Source: a virus. Taken from it: a DNA stretch of 22,278 bases. The number at the start of each line of letters is the position of its first letter. Position 1 is the first letter of the stretch. Below, one piece after another: positions 13,918 through 20,780 of this stretch. The notes under the pieces were generated by a model. The model was not told the origin of the DNA. It searched no databases and worked only from the letters and a program-made list of their open reading frames with translations. Made by a program: the position numbers and the translations under genes. The stretch is from the IMG/VR virus record IMGVR_UViG_3300006844_000047, positions 1 to 22,278 of that record, one strand, 5' to 3'.

Positions 13918-15330
13918 TCAGAGTTCCGCGAACTTGAAGGCGTTGGAAACCCGGTAGGGGTTTGCGTCGTTTTCGGGGGTGTTTTCGTACTGGCGGAACG
14001 GGCGGGACATGCAGGCATATCTCACTTCATCCACGGCGTGGTCCTCGCCGTCCGTGTCCAAATCTTCGGGATTGGTCTCGGAGTGCTGCATCATAGGCAA
14101 GGTGCGGAGGATAGCATGGCAGTTGTCGAAGAAGAAAATCATCGGGTGCCCGTCGCCGTTACCGCGAAGCCGCGCCCGCATCTGGTCCCACCCGCCCATC
14201 CTCTTGGGAATGCTTGTGCGGGTATTGTCCGCGCGGCGAAAGATCACGCGCTGCCGCGCCATCGTCTCCGCGATGGAGGGGCCGGAGATCACTGCGAATG
14301 CGGCAGGGTCCATCACACCGTAGGCTATGTCCTCGTGCCGCTCGCGAGCGCGGATTTCCTTTGCGACGACCTCGGCGGGGAGCTTCAGGCCCTCGTTGGG
14401 AGCCTTGGCCCCGTAATATTCCCGATAGCGTATGAGCGCGTTGCGGGGCAGGAGCTGGCCAAGGTGCGGCTGGTCGTCCTGAACGACGGCCCACCAGCCC
14501 ACGGAAAAAGGCTTCGCGGAGCCCCAGTCGGCAGAGCGAAACCGCGTCCAGCCTGATGGTATCTGGAAAGGTCGGATGACATGGCGTGCCTTGTCGTATT
14601 CGGGGAAAAAGGCTCCTTCGATCACGTCCCAGTCCCCGTCAAGCCACGCCCGCACCAGCTCCGGGGAGCCGCTCGCGCGGAGGCGGTTGACATAGCCGGG
14701 ATCGTTCCTCAGCAGCGCCGGATTATCGGACAGCTTCGCGGGTATGAAGACGCGGACGAGGCCGGTCTCGGGATCGTGGAAGGGACGCATGGGGCCCTTG
14801 TCGATGATCCAGTTCTTGACCCAGCCGTGGCCGGGACCGCCGGGATTGCAGGTGGCACGGAACTGGCACTTGATGCCGGCGACGTTCGAGCGAAGGGTCG
14901 CCAGAAGCTTGAATATCGGCCGGCTCTCCGCGTACTGCGTCAGCTCCTCCACGTAGACCCGCGTGAGGCTCCAGCCTTGGTAGTTCTGGGCGTCCGCGTC
15001 GCTTTCGAGATAGGCCATGTGCAGCAGCGCGCCGTTGGCAAAGCGAAACCATTTCTGCTGCCCGTCGTACTTCGCGGCGGAGCCGTACATGGCGTTGGCG
15101 ATCTCTATGGTGTCCTTCAGGTCTTCCCGTGTCTTGCGGATCATCAGGCCCTTGGCGGAGAGGCCCCAGCGGTCGGCGTGCAGCCAGAATTCGCCAAGGC
15201 TGGCGTAGCTCTTGCCGCCGCCGCGCGCACCGCCATACACCACGATGTCGAATGGGGCCCTCAGGAAGGCTACCTGAGGGCCGGGCTGTGGCTTGAAGCC
15301 AATGACTACTTTCCGGGGTTGCAGGACCAT
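13918..15330 (-). CDS. terL: Terminase large subunit
   Basis: A 470-residue protein. ATG 15330 overlaps the upstream stop as TAATG and has GGAGG 5 nt upstream; the longer in-frame start at 15384 would add an Arg-rich shadow peptide. N-terminal ATPase: Walker A GGARGGGKS (33-41), adenine-side RKTRED (65-70), Walker B VYVEE (125-129) and the coupling region ATCNPGG (159-165). C-terminal RNase H-like nuclease: acidic residues D268 in SADWGS, D341 in VMDPAAF, and D430/D434 in EDHAVDEVRYACM, the usual three-site set. Role: ATP-driven packaging motor that also cuts concatemeric DNA, working with terS and the portal. Length is normal and all catalytic elements are present. Confidence 0.93.
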   Translation of the reverse strand: MVLQPRKVVIGFKPQPGPQVAFLRAPFDIVVYGGARGGGKSYASLGEFWLHADRWGLSAKGLMIRKTREDLKDTIEIANAMYGSAAKYDGQQKWFRFANGALLHMAYLESDADAQNYQGWSLTRVYVEELTQYAESRPIFKLLATLRSNVAGIKCQFRATCNPGGPGHGWVKNWIIDKGPMRPFHDPETGLVRVFIPAKLSDNPALLRNDPGYVNRLRASGSPELVRAWLDGDWDVIEGAFFPEYDKARHVIRPFQIPSGWTRFRSADWGSAKPFSVGWWAVVQDDQPHLGQLLPRNALIRYREYYGAKAPNEGLKLPAEVVAKEIRARERHEDIAYGVMDPAAFAVISGPSIAETMARQRVIFRRADNTRTSIPKRMGGWDQMRARLRGNGDGHPMIFFFDNCHAILRTLPMMQHSETNPEDLDTDGEDHAVDEVRYACMSRPFRQYENTPENDANPYRVSNAFKFAEL

Positions 15331-15548
15331 TAGTCCTCCAGCGGAGCCCCGTCCGCGCCGCGCGTGACGGCGACGTTGGCCCACATGGCGACAGTGCGGA
15401 GACTGCGCAGGACGTAGGTCTTGTCGGGACCGGCGGGCAGGACTTCATCCAAGGCGTCGGCGTAGGTCTTGGCCGCCGCGCGAAGCTTTTCCATGCTGGC
15501 TTTCTGGGCGTCAGTCGGATTGTGGTACTCGAATGTCGATTTATGCAC
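15330..15548 (-). CDS. Acb2/Tad1-like hairpin-domain protein, candidate anti-CBASS/anti-Thoeris sponge
   Basis: A 72-residue protein from GTG 15548 with GGAGGAGA just upstream; its stop overlaps the terL ATG as TAATG. Two helices are visible: QKASMEKLRAAAKTYADALD (residues 15-34) and KTYVLRSLRTVAMWANVAVT (43-62), joined by a short EVLPAGPD turn. The signature ending in xMWANxxxxR after a helix, preceded by LP.(S/G).(E/D)K, matches what I recall of the Acb2/Tad1 hairpin family of small phage proteins. Known of the family: Acb2 hexamers sequester cyclic oligonucleotides made by CBASS, and some relatives bind gcADPR signals of Thoeris. Whether this member binds ligands cannot be told from sequence; the first helix here lacks the fully typical SREKS motif. 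Location in the packaging operon is unusual for a dedicated early anti-defence gene. Confidence 0.6.
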   Translation of the reverse strand: MHKSTFEYHNPTDAQKASMEKLRAAAKTYADALDEVLPAGPDKTYVLRSLRTVAMWANVAVTRGADGAPLED

Positions 15549-15698
15549 GGGGCTCTCCTCCTTTTAGTACAAAACGAGAACATGTCGTCAGGGGCGCGGT
15601 GTAAATTTTTGGGGCCCCCCTACCCCCCAGTATAGGGTACACTTTTTGGTTGTACCCTCCGGGTCTATACTTGGTCTATACTAGACACAACTTAGGGT
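15549..15698 (-). promoter_or_regulatory. Non-coding gap with repeats between terS and the Acb2-like gene
   Basis: 150 bp without a gene, the only sizeable gap in the packaging block. It holds an 8-bp perfect inverted repeat (AGGGTACA/TGTACCCT, 15634-15658, 9-nt loop) and a tandem 11-bp direct repeat beginning GGTCTATACT (15662-15683). A third CTATACT lies inverted at 15629-15635, and two C6 runs (G6 on the coding strand) lie near 15615-15628. No convincing sigma70 promoter is present, but TATAGA/TATACT-like hexamers occur. Possible roles: promoter/operator for the Acb2-like gene and terL, or a terminase recognition site. Confidence 0.45.
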
Positions 15699-16636: not shown

Positions 16637-16945
16637 TTACGCGGCAAGGCCGAACGGCAAGCCGGTCGCGCGGTCGATCACCATGTGACCATCGAAGCGG
16701 AATTCGCCGGCCTTGGTGGTCACGTACCACTGGTGCCGATGCTGGTGCACCGTGTAGCCGAGCCCGAACTGGTGCGACGCTTGGTTCATCTTGCGCTTGG
16801 TGGTGACGCTTTCCCATCCGCCGGCATCGAGGACGAGTGTCGCGGCATCGGCGCGCACGATCATGGTCGAATGATAAACGACGCTGACCTTGTCGGCGTC
16901 GCGGGCAATCTTGGTGCGGTAGGTCGAAAGGCGATTGTAGGCCAT
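16637..16945 (-). CDS. Small phage protein under the repeated promoter, unknown function
   Basis: A 102-residue protein, ATG 16945, with GGAG 8 nt upstream in the same leader (CCCGGAGAAACT) used by the two large genes of this region. The sequence is beta-rich: KVSVVYHSTMIVRADAATLV, LDAGGWESVTTKRKMNQASH, FGLGYTVHQHRHQWYVTTKA, FRFDGHMVIDRATGLPF. The combination YHSTxIV, a Gly-Gly-Trp turn, TTKxxMNQ and a GY.V strand is one I have seen in small phage proteins carrying only a DUF label. Function unknown. The three genes sharing this promoter are presumably expressed together, which ties it to the MoxR/VWA pair. Confidence 0.7.
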   Translation of the reverse strand: MAYNRLSTYRTKIARDADKVSVVYHSTMIVRADAATLVLDAGGWESVTTKRKMNQASHQFGLGYTVHQHRHQWYVTTKAGEFRFDGHMVIDRATGLPFGLAA

Positions 16946-17052: not shown

Positions 17053-17361
17053 CTATTTCCGGGCTCGTCGTTTTTGCTTGCGTTTGGGCTTGATCACCAG
17101 CTTTTCCGGCACAGGCTTAAGCAACCATCTAAGCCCGATGATCGAGCCCACGCCCGACACTATGGGAACAACCATCCATCCGAACGCATCAGCTTTATGC
17201 GTCGCAATCAATGCAGCCGCTCCAAAGAAAAGCACGCCAAAGATCGAGAGCAACAACAAGCACACAAGCACAAAAGACAATCCGGCCTTGGCTGCCGGTG
17301 CCGGCGCGCGTGACAGCGCGACGGCAAAGGCACCAAGCCCGGCGACAGCGAGCGCGATCAT
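17053..17361 (-). CDS. Small three-segment membrane protein coupled to the VWA gene
   Basis: A 102-residue protein. ATG 17361 overlaps the VWA gene stop as ATGA, which decides the start over the upstream in-frame one at 17433. Hydrophobic segments: residues about 1-17 (MIALAVAGLGAFAVALS), 26-50 (AGLSFVLVCLLLLSIFGVLF and on), and 58-78 (FGWMVVPIVSGVGSIIGLRW). A 20-residue tail follows, ending in KPKRKQKRRARK, strongly basic and so probably cytoplasmic. No domain recognised. Size, three segments and charged tail resemble class I holins, but it is far from the endolysin and coupled to the MoxR/VWA pair. A membrane anchor or partner for that complex is the other reading. Confidence 0.7.
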   Translation of the reverse strand: MIALAVAGLGAFAVALSRAPAPAAKAGLSFVLVCLLLLSIFGVLFFGAAALIATHKADAFGWMVVPIVSGVGSIIGLRWLLKPVPEKLVIKPKRKQKRRARK

Positions 17362-19163
17362 CGGCCTTGCTCCAGAACCTTGGTCAGCCGCTCCAGCCCA
17401 ACCTTGCCGACCTCGTTCACGTTGACGGCACATTCGTTGCGGAAAACGCCCATCGGCGCATGGCCGATATGCAGGTTTGCGATCTCGATGCCGAGCGAGT
17501 TTTCGAGATAAAGCCCGATCTCTTTCATGATCGCCTGACCCATGTTGCAGCCACCATCAGTGACGAGGAACATCACCTTGCGCTTGCCCGTCGCGCGCTT
17601 CACTTGCGCGAGCCCTGCCCTGACCATGTTCTCGCACAATGGCGTTCCACCCATGATCTGATTGATCATGTAGGCGAACTTGCGCGCGTCGGGCTTGGCC
17701 TTGCCCTTGGTCGCCTCGTGCAGCCCACGGTCGTTGAAGACATGGGTGAAGCAATCGACGCCGACCTGCCTTGCGGCTTGCGCGACGACGAGCGACAGCA
17801 CGCTCGATGCCACGATGCTGCTGCCCGACATCGAGCCCGAACCATCGACGAGAATTTCCACGTCGGTGTCGTATCCCTCCGACAGCATCCGCTTGCCGAA
17901 AACATGCGGATCACCTTGCAGGGCCTTCGATATGCGCCGGCTGTCGAAACGCCCGTTGGTGCGACCACCCTCGAACGTGTCCTCCTCCTCGCGCTTGAGC
18001 GCACGGGCGAGCAGCGCACGCTGGCGGCCCATGCGCGCGGCCATCTGCGGCACGTACTCGACGCTGCTCGTGCCACGCCCATCGACATTGCCGACCGAAC
18101 GGCCCTGTATCTCGCGCGGCTTGGAACGGCTGATCATACCCTGACGCATGACGGCGATCACTTGCTCCTGCACCCGCGCGCGGCTGCCGGCCTGCATGTT
18201 GTCGATCTCGTTCGGCTGCAATCCTGCATCGTCGAAATCGGCATCGCTCAGTGGATCATGCTCGGCGTTCTCGTCACCCTTCGCGCCCTGCGATCCACCC
18301 TTGCCGCCAGCCTTGGCCTCGTCCTCGGGCTCGCGCGGCGCGCTCTGGCCGCCCTGCGGGGCCTCTGGAGCGTCGTCGTCGCTGTCGGCACCCTCGGATG
18401 CCTCCTCGTCCTCGTCGCGCTCAGCGGGCTCGCTGGGGCCCTCTGTGGGCTCGCGCCAACGCTCGGGCAGATCGGGCAGCTTGACCTTGGGCTTTTTGAA
18501 CTTAGCGAGAAACGCAGAGATTTCATTCGCGAGGTCGAGGCAATCCTGCGTCGTCACGCACGCGGCCAGACGCGGCAACGCCCAATCGAGGCACAACTTG
18601 ACGCCGCCCTTTGGATCGAGCCTTGCCCATATCGATTGCGCATCGACGGCATAGCCGTTCTGCGCACGCCCAAGAACAGCGATGGTCCACCCGAACGAGC
18701 GAATGTTGTTCGGATCGTATCCCTCGGCCCACGCCTTGGCCAAGAGGCTGTCCACGAGCGCGCTGAAAGCGGCCTTGGCATTGAACGCCAACTTCATATC
18801 GATGGTCAGCTTTTCCTGCCGCACGTCGTCCACGGCATTGAGCATCCGATGCTGGTTCCGGCGCACGGCCGTATCCCAGACAGCCTTGTCGGTGTGCAGC
18901 GGATGGCCGATCTCGTGCAGGAGGTAGGCGGCCCAATGATCGAACTCGCCTGCGCTCATGCGGTACTGCGCCGGGCGCACGGGCATGTTGATCGCCACAT
19001 TCAGGGGAGTGGCACCGTGAGGACGATGCCAATCGACACTGGCCGTGCCGGTCCGGCTGTCGGCGATGACGTTCACGTAGACATTATCGTTCGACAGAGC
19101 GCGCTTGAAGTAGTCGGCTGCCAGTTTCTGGAGCCCGTTCAGGGCCTCGGGGTAGGTGTACAT
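17358..19163 (-). CDS. CobT-like VWA protein with HEXXH metallopeptidase motif
   Basis: A 601-residue protein from ATG 19163, with the shared GGAG leader 8 nt upstream. Residues 70-125 contain a zinc-peptidase signature, LLHEIGHPLHTD (His83, Glu84, His87), followed by NAVDDVRQEK (109-118), whose acidic residues are in the right place for the third ligand. Residues 237-310 are a very acidic, disordered linker (DEDEEASEGADSDDD). Residues about 433-600 form a VWA domain with a complete MIDAS: D440/S442/S444 in DGSGSMS, T507 in GGTPL, and D536 in LVTDGG. Known: CobT-type VWA proteins pair with a MoxR/CobS ATPase, and that ATPase lies directly upstream here. Cobalt chelation needs CobN, which is absent from the window. 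A chaperone or protein-remodelling role is therefore more likely than cobalamin synthesis. Confidence 0.85.
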   Translation of the reverse strand: MYTYPEALNGLQKLAADYFKRALSNDNVYVNVIADSRTGTASVDWHRPHGATPLNVAINMPVRPAQYRMSAGEFDHWAAYLLHEIGHPLHTDKAVWDTAVRRNQHRMLNAVDDVRQEKLTIDMKLAFNAKAAFSALVDSLLAKAWAEGYDPNNIRSFGWTIAVLGRAQNGYAVDAQSIWARLDPKGGVKLCLDWALPRLAACVTTQDCLDLANEISAFLAKFKKPKVKLPDLPERWREPTEGPSEPAERDEDEEASEGADSDDDAPEAPQGGQSAPREPEDEAKAGGKGGSQGAKGDENAEHDPLSDADFDDAGLQPNEIDNMQAGSRARVQEQVIAVMRQGMISRSKPREIQGRSVGNVDGRGTSSVEYVPQMAARMGRQRALLARALKREEEDTFEGGRTNGRFDSRRISKALQGDPHVFGKRMLSEGYDTDVEILVDGSGSMSGSSIVASSVLSLVVAQAARQVGVDCFTHVFNDRGLHEATKGKAKPDARKFAYMINQIMGGTPLCENMVRAGLAQVKRATGKRKVMFLVTDGGCNMGQAIMKEIGLYLENSLGIEIANLHIGHAPMGVFRNECAVNVNEVGKVGLERLTKVLEQGR

Positions 19164-19193
19164 TTCAGTTTCTCCGGGTTTGGTAGTTCAAGG

Positions 19194-19222
19194 ATTATAC
19201 CAGAGCCCCTCGCATAATGCAA
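19194..19222 (-). promoter_or_regulatory. Sigma70-type promoter, repeat copy 2
   Basis: TTGCAT at 19222-19217, exactly 17 bp, then a consensus TATAAT at 19199-19194, the best promoter in the window. It begins 17 bp after the stop of the ATPase gene and precedes the VWA gene, so the two genes of the pair are not simply co-transcribed. The leader ends in CCCGGAGAAACTG before the ATG. Confidence 0.85.
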
Positions 19223-19229
19223 GGGGCTC
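19203..19229. repeat. 27-nt palindrome over the -35 region, copy 2
   Basis: Identical over 27 nt to 17005-17031: GAGCCCC arm, central GCATTATGC, GGGGCTC arm. It starts 10 nt after the ATPase stop codon, so it could act both as a hairpin at the end of that message and as an operator for the promoter it overlaps. Confidence 0.78.
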
Positions 19230-19238
19230 TATTTTGGC

Positions 19239-20780
19239 TTAGCGATTGAGCGCGGCGCTGACCTCGTCGTCGAAGGCGCGCGAGCCAGCGGAATTGTCCG
19301 GCACGCCCATCGGCTCGACCGACGTGGACGAGCTGCCCGTAAGGTGCCGCTCGAACTCGCGGTTCCACTCCAGCGTGGCCAGAGCCTCAAGCGCGGCGCG
19401 CTCGGTGTTGGGCATGGCGTTCAGCACGGCGACCTCGAACGCGACCTTGGACGAGAAGCCGTCCTTGACCGTGTTGACGAAACCCGTCATCTGGCGCAGC
19501 GACAGGATCGCACCGTCCATCTCGGGCAACTTGCGAGCCCTCTGGAAAAACTCCACGACGTGCGTCGCAGCAGCCTCGACGATGCCGGTCCAGCCCATGA
19601 GAGCCTGCACTTCCTGCGCCTTGGTGAGGTAGTCCACCCTGATCATGCGCTTGAAGCGATTGACCAGCGCGCCATTGCTCTGGTTCGTGCCGGCATAGCG
19701 GCCCGTCTCGTCACCACTGCCGTTCGTATTGTCGGCAACGCAGAGCATGACGCCCGGCGCGACCTTGATGACCTCGCCGGTCTGATGGATCGTGTACGAG
19801 CGATGGTCGTCGGCAATGCCCTGCAACAGCGCCTGCACGCCGGCCGGCGCGAGCGTCACCTCATCGAACAGGATGACCGAACCGGGCCGGCGCAGCGCGG
19901 CGACGAGCGCGCCGTCGTTCCACTGCGTCTCGCCGGCCTTGAAGCCGTCGCCACCAATGAGCGTGCCCACCTCGGTCTGCTTGGTGAAGCCGAACTTGAA
20001 AAACGGCCTGCCGGTGTAGGCTGCGAACTGCTCGGGCAGAGAGGTCTTGCCGGAGCCTCCGGGCCCGACCATCCACACGTTCGTGCCATGTTCGGCAGCC
20101 GTCGCGAACAAGCCCATGTTGGTGGCATCGACGACATAGAACGGATCGATGGCCGGCGCAGCGCCATGGCTGTTCCAGAGGCTGATCGGAGCCTTGCCGA
20201 AACCCTGCTGCGTGCGCACGCCGAACAGCTTCGAGAACTCGACCGTCTTGCCGGTCTTGACGGCGTAGGCGAGCTGCCCTTTCGGAGCCTCGCGCGCGGC
20301 CTCGACGACGCGCTCGACGACGCGCTCGACCTCGACCTCCTTCACGATCTCGATCGGCGGCTGATTGGCGGCACGCACGACGGGCTCAAGCGCACGCTCG
20401 ATCTCGGAGCGAACCAAGGGCGAGAGCAGCTGATCGACACCCGCGATGATCGACGCGACGCTGAAACCCTCTTTGGCCTTCTCGATGCGCATCGCCTCAG
20501 CGAAATCCTGACCGGCCTCGACATCGTGATGGATCACGGGAGCGGGCTTGGCAACGGGCAGGGCGATGTCGGCACCGACAGCGGTCTGCGTCGCGCCGAT
20601 CATGGCGATCACATCGTTGAGCCAGCCGTACTCCTCGGCGAACTCGATCAGCTGCGCGTTCTTGACCTCGCGGCTGTCGAGGCCCTTGCGCTCGCACCAG
20701 CCTGCAAAAGCGGACTTCGACTTGAGGAACGCACGCACCTTGCCACGGGCAACGGTAGGAATGGAAATCTGGGTCGTCAT
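19239..20780 (-). CDS. MoxR/CobS-like AAA+ ATPase
   Basis: A 513-residue protein from ATG 20780 with the shared leader. Residues 14-60 are a small helical N-terminal unit (RAFLKSKSAFAGWCERKG, LIEFAEEYGWLND) that may bind DNA or a partner. Residues 141-165 are Glu/Val/Arg-rich coiled coil. The AAA+ core spans about 200-470: Walker A GPGGSGKT (239-246), KFGFTKQTEVGTLIGGDGF around the pore-loop position, Walker B VILFDEV (302-308), sensor 1 in ADNTNGSGDETGRYAGTNQ (349-367), and an arginine-finger region NRFKR (374-378). The DxTNG and Asn-rich sensor stretch is the CobS/MoxR subtype. Role: ATP-driven remodelling with a VWA partner, encoded next. Length is longer than minimal MoxR proteins because of the N-terminal extension. 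Confidence 0.88.
   Translation of the reverse strand: MTTQISIPTVARGKVRAFLKSKSAFAGWCERKGLDSREVKNAQLIEFAEEYGWLNDVIAMIGATQTAVGADIALPVAKPAPVIHHDVEAGQDFAEAMRIEKAKEGFSVASIIAGVDQLLSPLVRSEIERALEPVVRAANQPPIEIVKEVEVERVVERVVEAAREAPKGQLAYAVKTGKTVEFSKLFGVRTQQGFGKAPISLWNSHGAAPAIDPFYVVDATNMGLFATAAEHGTNVWMVGPGGSGKTSLPEQFAAYTGRPFFKFGFTKQTEVGTLIGGDGFKAGETQWNDGALVAALRRPGSVILFDEVTLAPAGVQALLQGIADDHRSYTIHQTGEVIKVAPGVMLCVADNTNGSGDETGRYAGTNQSNGALVNRFKRMIRVDYLTKAQEVQALMGWTGIVEAAATHVVEFFQRARKLPEMDGAILSLRQMTGFVNTVKDGFSSKVAFEVAVLNAMPNTERAALEALATLEWNREFERHLTGSSSTSVEPMGVPDNSAGSRAFDDEVSAALNR

Follow-up and report, generated by a model that had tools for sequence, protein, structure and literature searches.

A hairpin-only Acb2/Tad1-family gene between terS and terL of a viral genome encodes a candidate sponge for cyclic-oligonucleotide alarm signals

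Anti-defense genes are usually looked for among early genes. The window analyzed here (the whole 22,278-base stretch of DNA of an IMG/VR viral record) harbors, between the genes for the two terminase subunits, a small gene whose product was likened in an initial annotation, on the basis of sequence pattern, to the Acb2/Tad1 proteins. The question thus raised by this locus is whether its product belongs to that family and, if so, what such a protein might do among packaging genes.

The open reading frame list and translation of the window yield a product of 72 amino acids with a GTG start, MHKSTFEYHNPTDAQKASMEKLRAAAKTYADALDEVLPAGPDKTYVLRSLRTVAMWANVAVTRGADGAPLED, the gene for which is flanked by the features listed in Table 1. 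The open reading frame represents a real gene, as had been presumed, and is located on the minus strand, a detail which had been left unstated. Its position, wedged between terS and terL, is borne out by PHROG profiles that name both terminase subunits, while the TAATG overlap with terL can be read directly in the sequence, the final A of the hairpin gene TAA (15332-15330) being the first base of the terL ATG. Because of this overlap and of a GGAGG motif just ahead (15339-15335, within the hairpin gene and shortly 5′ of the terL ATG), translation of terL is probably coupled to that of the hairpin gene. The encoded TerL shares 47% identity with TerL of ctMlz233 and 42% with that of Pam5, and an identical gene arrangement is present on a 43.5-kb contig with 99 to 100% identity to the window. 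Upstream of terS, the minus strand encodes a 102-amino-acid protein (16637-16945) that matches phrog_554, a family whose function is not known (E = 1e-12). A MoxR-VWA type pair (17358-20780, minus strand) lies just ahead of terS in the phage genome, with an AAA_5/MoxR-like ATPase gene (19239-20780) upstream of a gene for a VWA/CobT-like protein with weak profile matches (17358-19163).

Table 1. Features of the window at and around the hairpin gene
Feature	Position	Strand	Basis or remarks
IMG/VR viral record IMGVR_UViG_3300006844_000047	22,278 bases	one strand presented	
terL, 470 aa	13918..15330	-	phrog_2, E 3.6e-37
TAATG overlap, hairpin gene stop with terL start	15328..15332	-	from sequence
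Hairpin-only Acb2/Tad1-family gene	15330..15548	-	PF24729, phrog_1454, AlphaFold2 model, Foldseek
Gap between terS and hairpin gene, 150 nt	15549..15698	-	foldable, contains GGGTAC...GTACCC
Shine-Dalgarno AGGAGG, 8 nt 5′ of hairpin gene GTG	15557..15562	-	from sequence
terS, 181 aa	15699..16244	-	phrog_51, E 3.1e-9; phrog_1595, E 6.7e-9

The 150-nt gap that follows terS yielded no sigma-70-like promoter or terminator on scanning, and its predicted folding is only slightly better than that of shuffled sequences (z = -1.7), with no clear excess. The only terminator-like sites seen around the hairpin gene lie before terS, and the scan, which covers promoters of the sigma-70 type and may miss phage-specific ones, detected none in the vicinity of the gene. 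An early or separate promoter, and with it the suggestion that the operon is also read early, is, therefore, not supported.

Membership of the Acb2/Tad1 hairpin family, previously proposed from sequence pattern, is supported by profile comparison. The Pfam profile PF24729 (Acb2_Tad1_hairpin) matches the protein with 44.8 bits (E = 1.4e-11; curated cut-off of 27 bits) across profile positions 2 to 58 of 58 and residues 8 to 63 of the protein, which retains the MWAN signature, and phrog_1454 is matched with an E-value of 4e-16. For comparison, the known Acb2 proteins T4 Vs.4 and PaP2 p26 score 71.5 and 66.1 bits, respectively, against PF24729, while, of three relatives of the window protein, two exceed the cut-off (34.5 and 34.0 bits) and the third falls just below it (25.9 bits). 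Shuffled (n = 3) and reversed (n = 1) copies of the window protein gave no match to the profile. Relatives were detected in IMG/VR at 19 loci by a single-sequence scan and at 292 by a profile scan, and the hairpin genes display a median pairwise dN/dS of approximately 0.25, indicative of purifying selection. Taken together, the profile E-value, the blank controls, the IMG/VR loci and the dN/dS ratio place the gene beyond chance. A scan of GTDB genomes returned one match, which lies in a Verrucomicrobia metagenome-assembled genome (MAG) on a contig of 42.6 kb, and NCBIfam and PADLOC searches with the window protein returned nothing. No relative was found in the PDB using the window protein as a single sequence, nor using a profile of the protein and 12 close relatives, and neither search brought up a solved structure of the Arg type (see below); a profile to which canonical hairpins had been added reached 9PTQ (E = 4e-5).

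The predicted fold is in keeping with this assignment. An AlphaFold2 model based on 13 sequences comprises an antiparallel two-helix hairpin (residues 13 to 36 and 41 to 61; mean pLDDT of 86.5), thus agreeing with the two-helix plan proposed at the outset, and a fold of another kind was not seen. A Foldseek search of 350,542 PDB chains placed the two chains of T4 Acb2 (7UQ2, Vs.4 with cGAMP) at ranks 1 and 2 with an E-value of 0.8, which is not significant taken alone, and VIA-align also placed 7UQ2 first (Z-score of 7.0, compared to 6.3 for 8H2J Acb2 and 5.0 for 7UAV Tad1). Given how frequent short helical hairpins are, these scores are modest, but the ranking of the matches agrees with the sequence profile. 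The original designation as Acb2/Tad1-like may be narrowed on the same evidence. Only seven residues precede the hairpin match, no beta strand of three or more residues is present in the model, and the N-terminal beta domain typical of Tad1 is absent, which argues for the hairpin-only architecture of Acb2 rather than that of Tad1; binding of gcADPR is, therefore, not implied. The Pfam hairpin is common to Tad1, and Tad1 chains are among the structure matches, which would fit a Tad1-type anti-Thoeris sponge for gcADPR, but such a function is rendered quite unlikely by the missing beta domain and by the presence of Arg in the window protein where the Tad1 segment ALTHVEEALMW carries Thr. According to a review, the gcADPR site lies between conserved loops and the C-terminal tail of one protomer and the helices of the other (PMC12043709).

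The residues corresponding to the known Acb2 pocket were compared across 66 distinct viral proteins related to the window protein, hereafter referred to as the Arg-type subfamily. Arg23 is invariant among these (66/66) and aligns with the basic helix 1 residues Lys23 of T4 Acb2 and Lys26 of PaP2 Acb2, the latter having a role in ligand binding. Tyr8, which is Tyr or Phe in all 66 proteins, aligns with Tyr8 of T4 Acb2, the Y8A mutant of which has lost cyclic-dinucleotide binding (PMC12657218, PMC12657230). At the position of T4 Thr68, the window protein and all 66 members possess Arg48 in place of the Thr of Acb2, a residue that influences affinity, which is lower in the T4 T68M mutant (PMC12657230), and that is not known as family-defining. 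The position of T4 Phe82 is occupied by Thr62 in the window protein, and PaP2 Acb2 likewise lacks Phe there (Ala88). The known pocket is thus not exactly copied, given the substitutions of Thr68 by Arg48 and of Phe82 by Thr62. Arg48 and Arg51 on helix 2 are both present in 66/66 subfamily members, whereas Thr and Glu occupy these positions in 70/70 canonical hairpins, a comparison set ordered by similarity to a single Paenibacillus protein. Independently of this set, proteins of T4, PaP2, mycobacterial and Streptomyces origin as well as Tad1 proteins carry Thr where the subfamily has Arg48. The subfamily also possesses an invariant Asp66-Gly67-x-Pro69 in its C-terminal tail. While conservation of GPDKT and AMWAN was partly imposed by the scan patterns, Arg23, Arg48, Arg51, Thr62, Arg63 and Asp66-Gly67 are positions outside these patterns. 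Since an invariant Arg replaces Thr68, where mutation weakens binding, the ligand preference of the subfamily may differ, and it is conceivable from the alignment that Arg48 and Arg51 change this preference relative to T4 and PaP2 Acb2. The differing Thr68 and Phe82 equivalents would also be consistent with a decayed or repurposed hairpin, which has lost nucleotide binding and is carried as neutral cargo, but both purifying selection (median dN/dS of approximately 0.25) and the many residues that are invariant in the 66 proteins, several of them outside the search patterns, make such an explanation highly improbable.

The genomic surroundings of the relatives show that the hairpin gene is accessory and mobile, because relatives with 57 to 68% identity reside in phages whose terminases cannot be aligned to that of the window and because the slot is empty or shifted in phages with related terL genes. 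In Pam5 and ctMlz233, which encode the nearest annotated relatives of the window TerL, no hairpin gene is present between terL and the gene preceding it, while in L071, the TerL of which is 54% identical to that of the window, the hairpin gene follows the portal gene and is displaced by 3.2 kb. Such a spread over unrelated terminases fits an accessory anti-defense gene. In L113 (MW202489), the phage whose annotated TerL is nearest to that of the window, terL is immediately preceded by a gene (557-1111) which is annotated as "cyclic nucleotide-binding domain" and may simply encode the small terminase.

Placement with packaging genes had been regarded as late for an anti-defense protein, but such a location is usual for this family rather than anomalous, as the terL-adjacent lineages and 80 canonical loci illustrate. 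The hairpin gene directly precedes terL, in the same orientation, in the window, L053, L102/103 and L106, and similarly in a lineage with phrog_38-type TerL (L005, L008/9, L013/14 and L016/17), while in L093 and L073 it lies 133 to 150 bp upstream of the TerL gene. More than half of the 80 canonical loci have, on the same strand and no more than 5 kb away, a gene for a terminase, portal, minor-head, scaffold or capsid protein; 33 have one no more than 1.5 kb away, and 13 are located upstream of a terminase gene at a distance of up to 1 kb. These counts are minimum values, since many contigs are fragmentary and unrelated TerLs may escape detection, and, the loci being related contigs and not independent samples, they show recurrence rather than tested enrichment. 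Two slots are favored at these loci (L115-L194, IMG/VR contigs), one a short distance upstream of terS and the other between the genes for MuF minor-head and scaffold proteins. In mycobacterial phages, 0.3 to 1.3 kb separate the hairpin gene from the terminase genes downstream of it.

Such repeated linkage to terL, together with the strong conservation of the protein, could also fit a packaging accessory, i.e., a small helical protein acting with TerS and TerL whose likeness to Acb2 reflects fold ancestry only. The gene immediately precedes terL both in the window and in several lineages whose TerLs are unrelated, its stop codon overlaps the terL start, and canonical hairpin genes likewise cluster in head and packaging modules. 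However, other subfamily members are located in replication/recombination clusters, alongside genes for a Sak4-like annealing protein, an exonuclease and a polymerase, or behind the portal gene (L071), so that the linkage does not hold throughout; Pam5 and ctMlz233 lack a hairpin gene in the slot directly before terL, the window already encodes its own TerS, and the family includes experimentally proven sponges. A purely packaging role is thus considered improbable, and was ranked second, behind the sponge reading.

It is, therefore, the sponge reading that we favor: with a probability of roughly 0.75, the gene is proposed to encode a hairpin sponge of Acb2 architecture for a cyclic-oligonucleotide alarm signal. 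By analogy with Acb2, a hexamer that binds cyclic di- and trinucleotides, the protein would assemble into a compact oligomer that binds, without cutting, a cyclic-oligonucleotide alarm produced by CBASS or a related bacterial anti-phage system, and the suicide effector, with its alarm sequestered, would stay inactive. Co-expression of the sponge with packaging proteins may, furthermore, be timed to an alarm set off by newly made structural proteins. Phages without acb2 are known to escape CBASS through mutation of the major capsid protein (PMC10419184), and the Thoeris protein ThsB1 recognizes the major head protein (PMC12043709); as alarms are in this manner linked to structural proteins, a sponge made together with packaging proteins would match the moment of alarm. 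Acb2 itself triggers the Panoptes defense (PMC12657218), which provides a reason for phages both gaining and losing the gene. A more far-reaching proposal, which we advance tentatively and regard as rather doubtful, is that the Arg-type subfamily represents a distinct class of sponge, directed at a signal other than those of the known Acb2 proteins and repeatedly recruited beside terL for co-production with the structural proteins that trigger immunity.

The family itself being already known, the parts worth following are the Arg-type subfamily, which presents a testable change in ligand specificity at a position affecting the affinity of T4 Acb2, and its linkage to the packaging module. If hairpin sponges are carried and expressed with packaging and head genes, counter-defense timed to structural-protein alarms would constitute a strategy of general use, and anti-defense functions could then be sought in small unannotated genes next to terL.

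Among known systems, Tad1 (7UAV, 7UAW and 8KBE) shares with the window protein the hairpin family, as its C-terminal part, and the MW motif, but possesses an N-terminal beta domain of its own which the window protein lacks. The hairpin-only proteins of Paenibacillus and mycobacterial phages (Vegas gp80, Fionnbharth gp5 and Nergal gp2) follow the same motif plan, differing in their 33 to 36% identity, in the presence of Thr and Glu at the Arg48 and Arg51 positions and in the absence of the DGxP tail. Acb2 homolog 43 (9PTQ), a compact-loop member of 76 amino acids, is the nearest short solved member to the window protein, although its helix 2 is of the Thr/Glu type (VFKTKLEEA), without Arg48 and Arg51. 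T4 Acb2 (Vs.4, 7UQ2) represents the best structural match to the window model and resembles it in its hairpin-only PF24729 architecture, Tyr8, a basic residue at position 23 and the helix 2 MWA motif; it differs in its length of 88 amino acids, with a segment inserted between the helices, in possessing Thr68 and Phe82 where the window protein has Arg48 and Thr62, and in the location of its gene, which adjoins vs.3 and regB rather than a terminase gene. PaP2 Acb2 (p26, 8H2J and 8IXZ), also a hairpin-only PF24729 protein of a tailed phage with the Tyr and Lys/Arg pair, is longer (93 amino acids, with a longer insert) and carries Thr at the Arg48 position. Its gene (L026, NC_005884, 24096-24377) is located where the structural and replication blocks converge, closing the leftward block and adjoining the terminus of the rightward structural one, and a solved Acb2 is thus also encoded at a structural-gene border.
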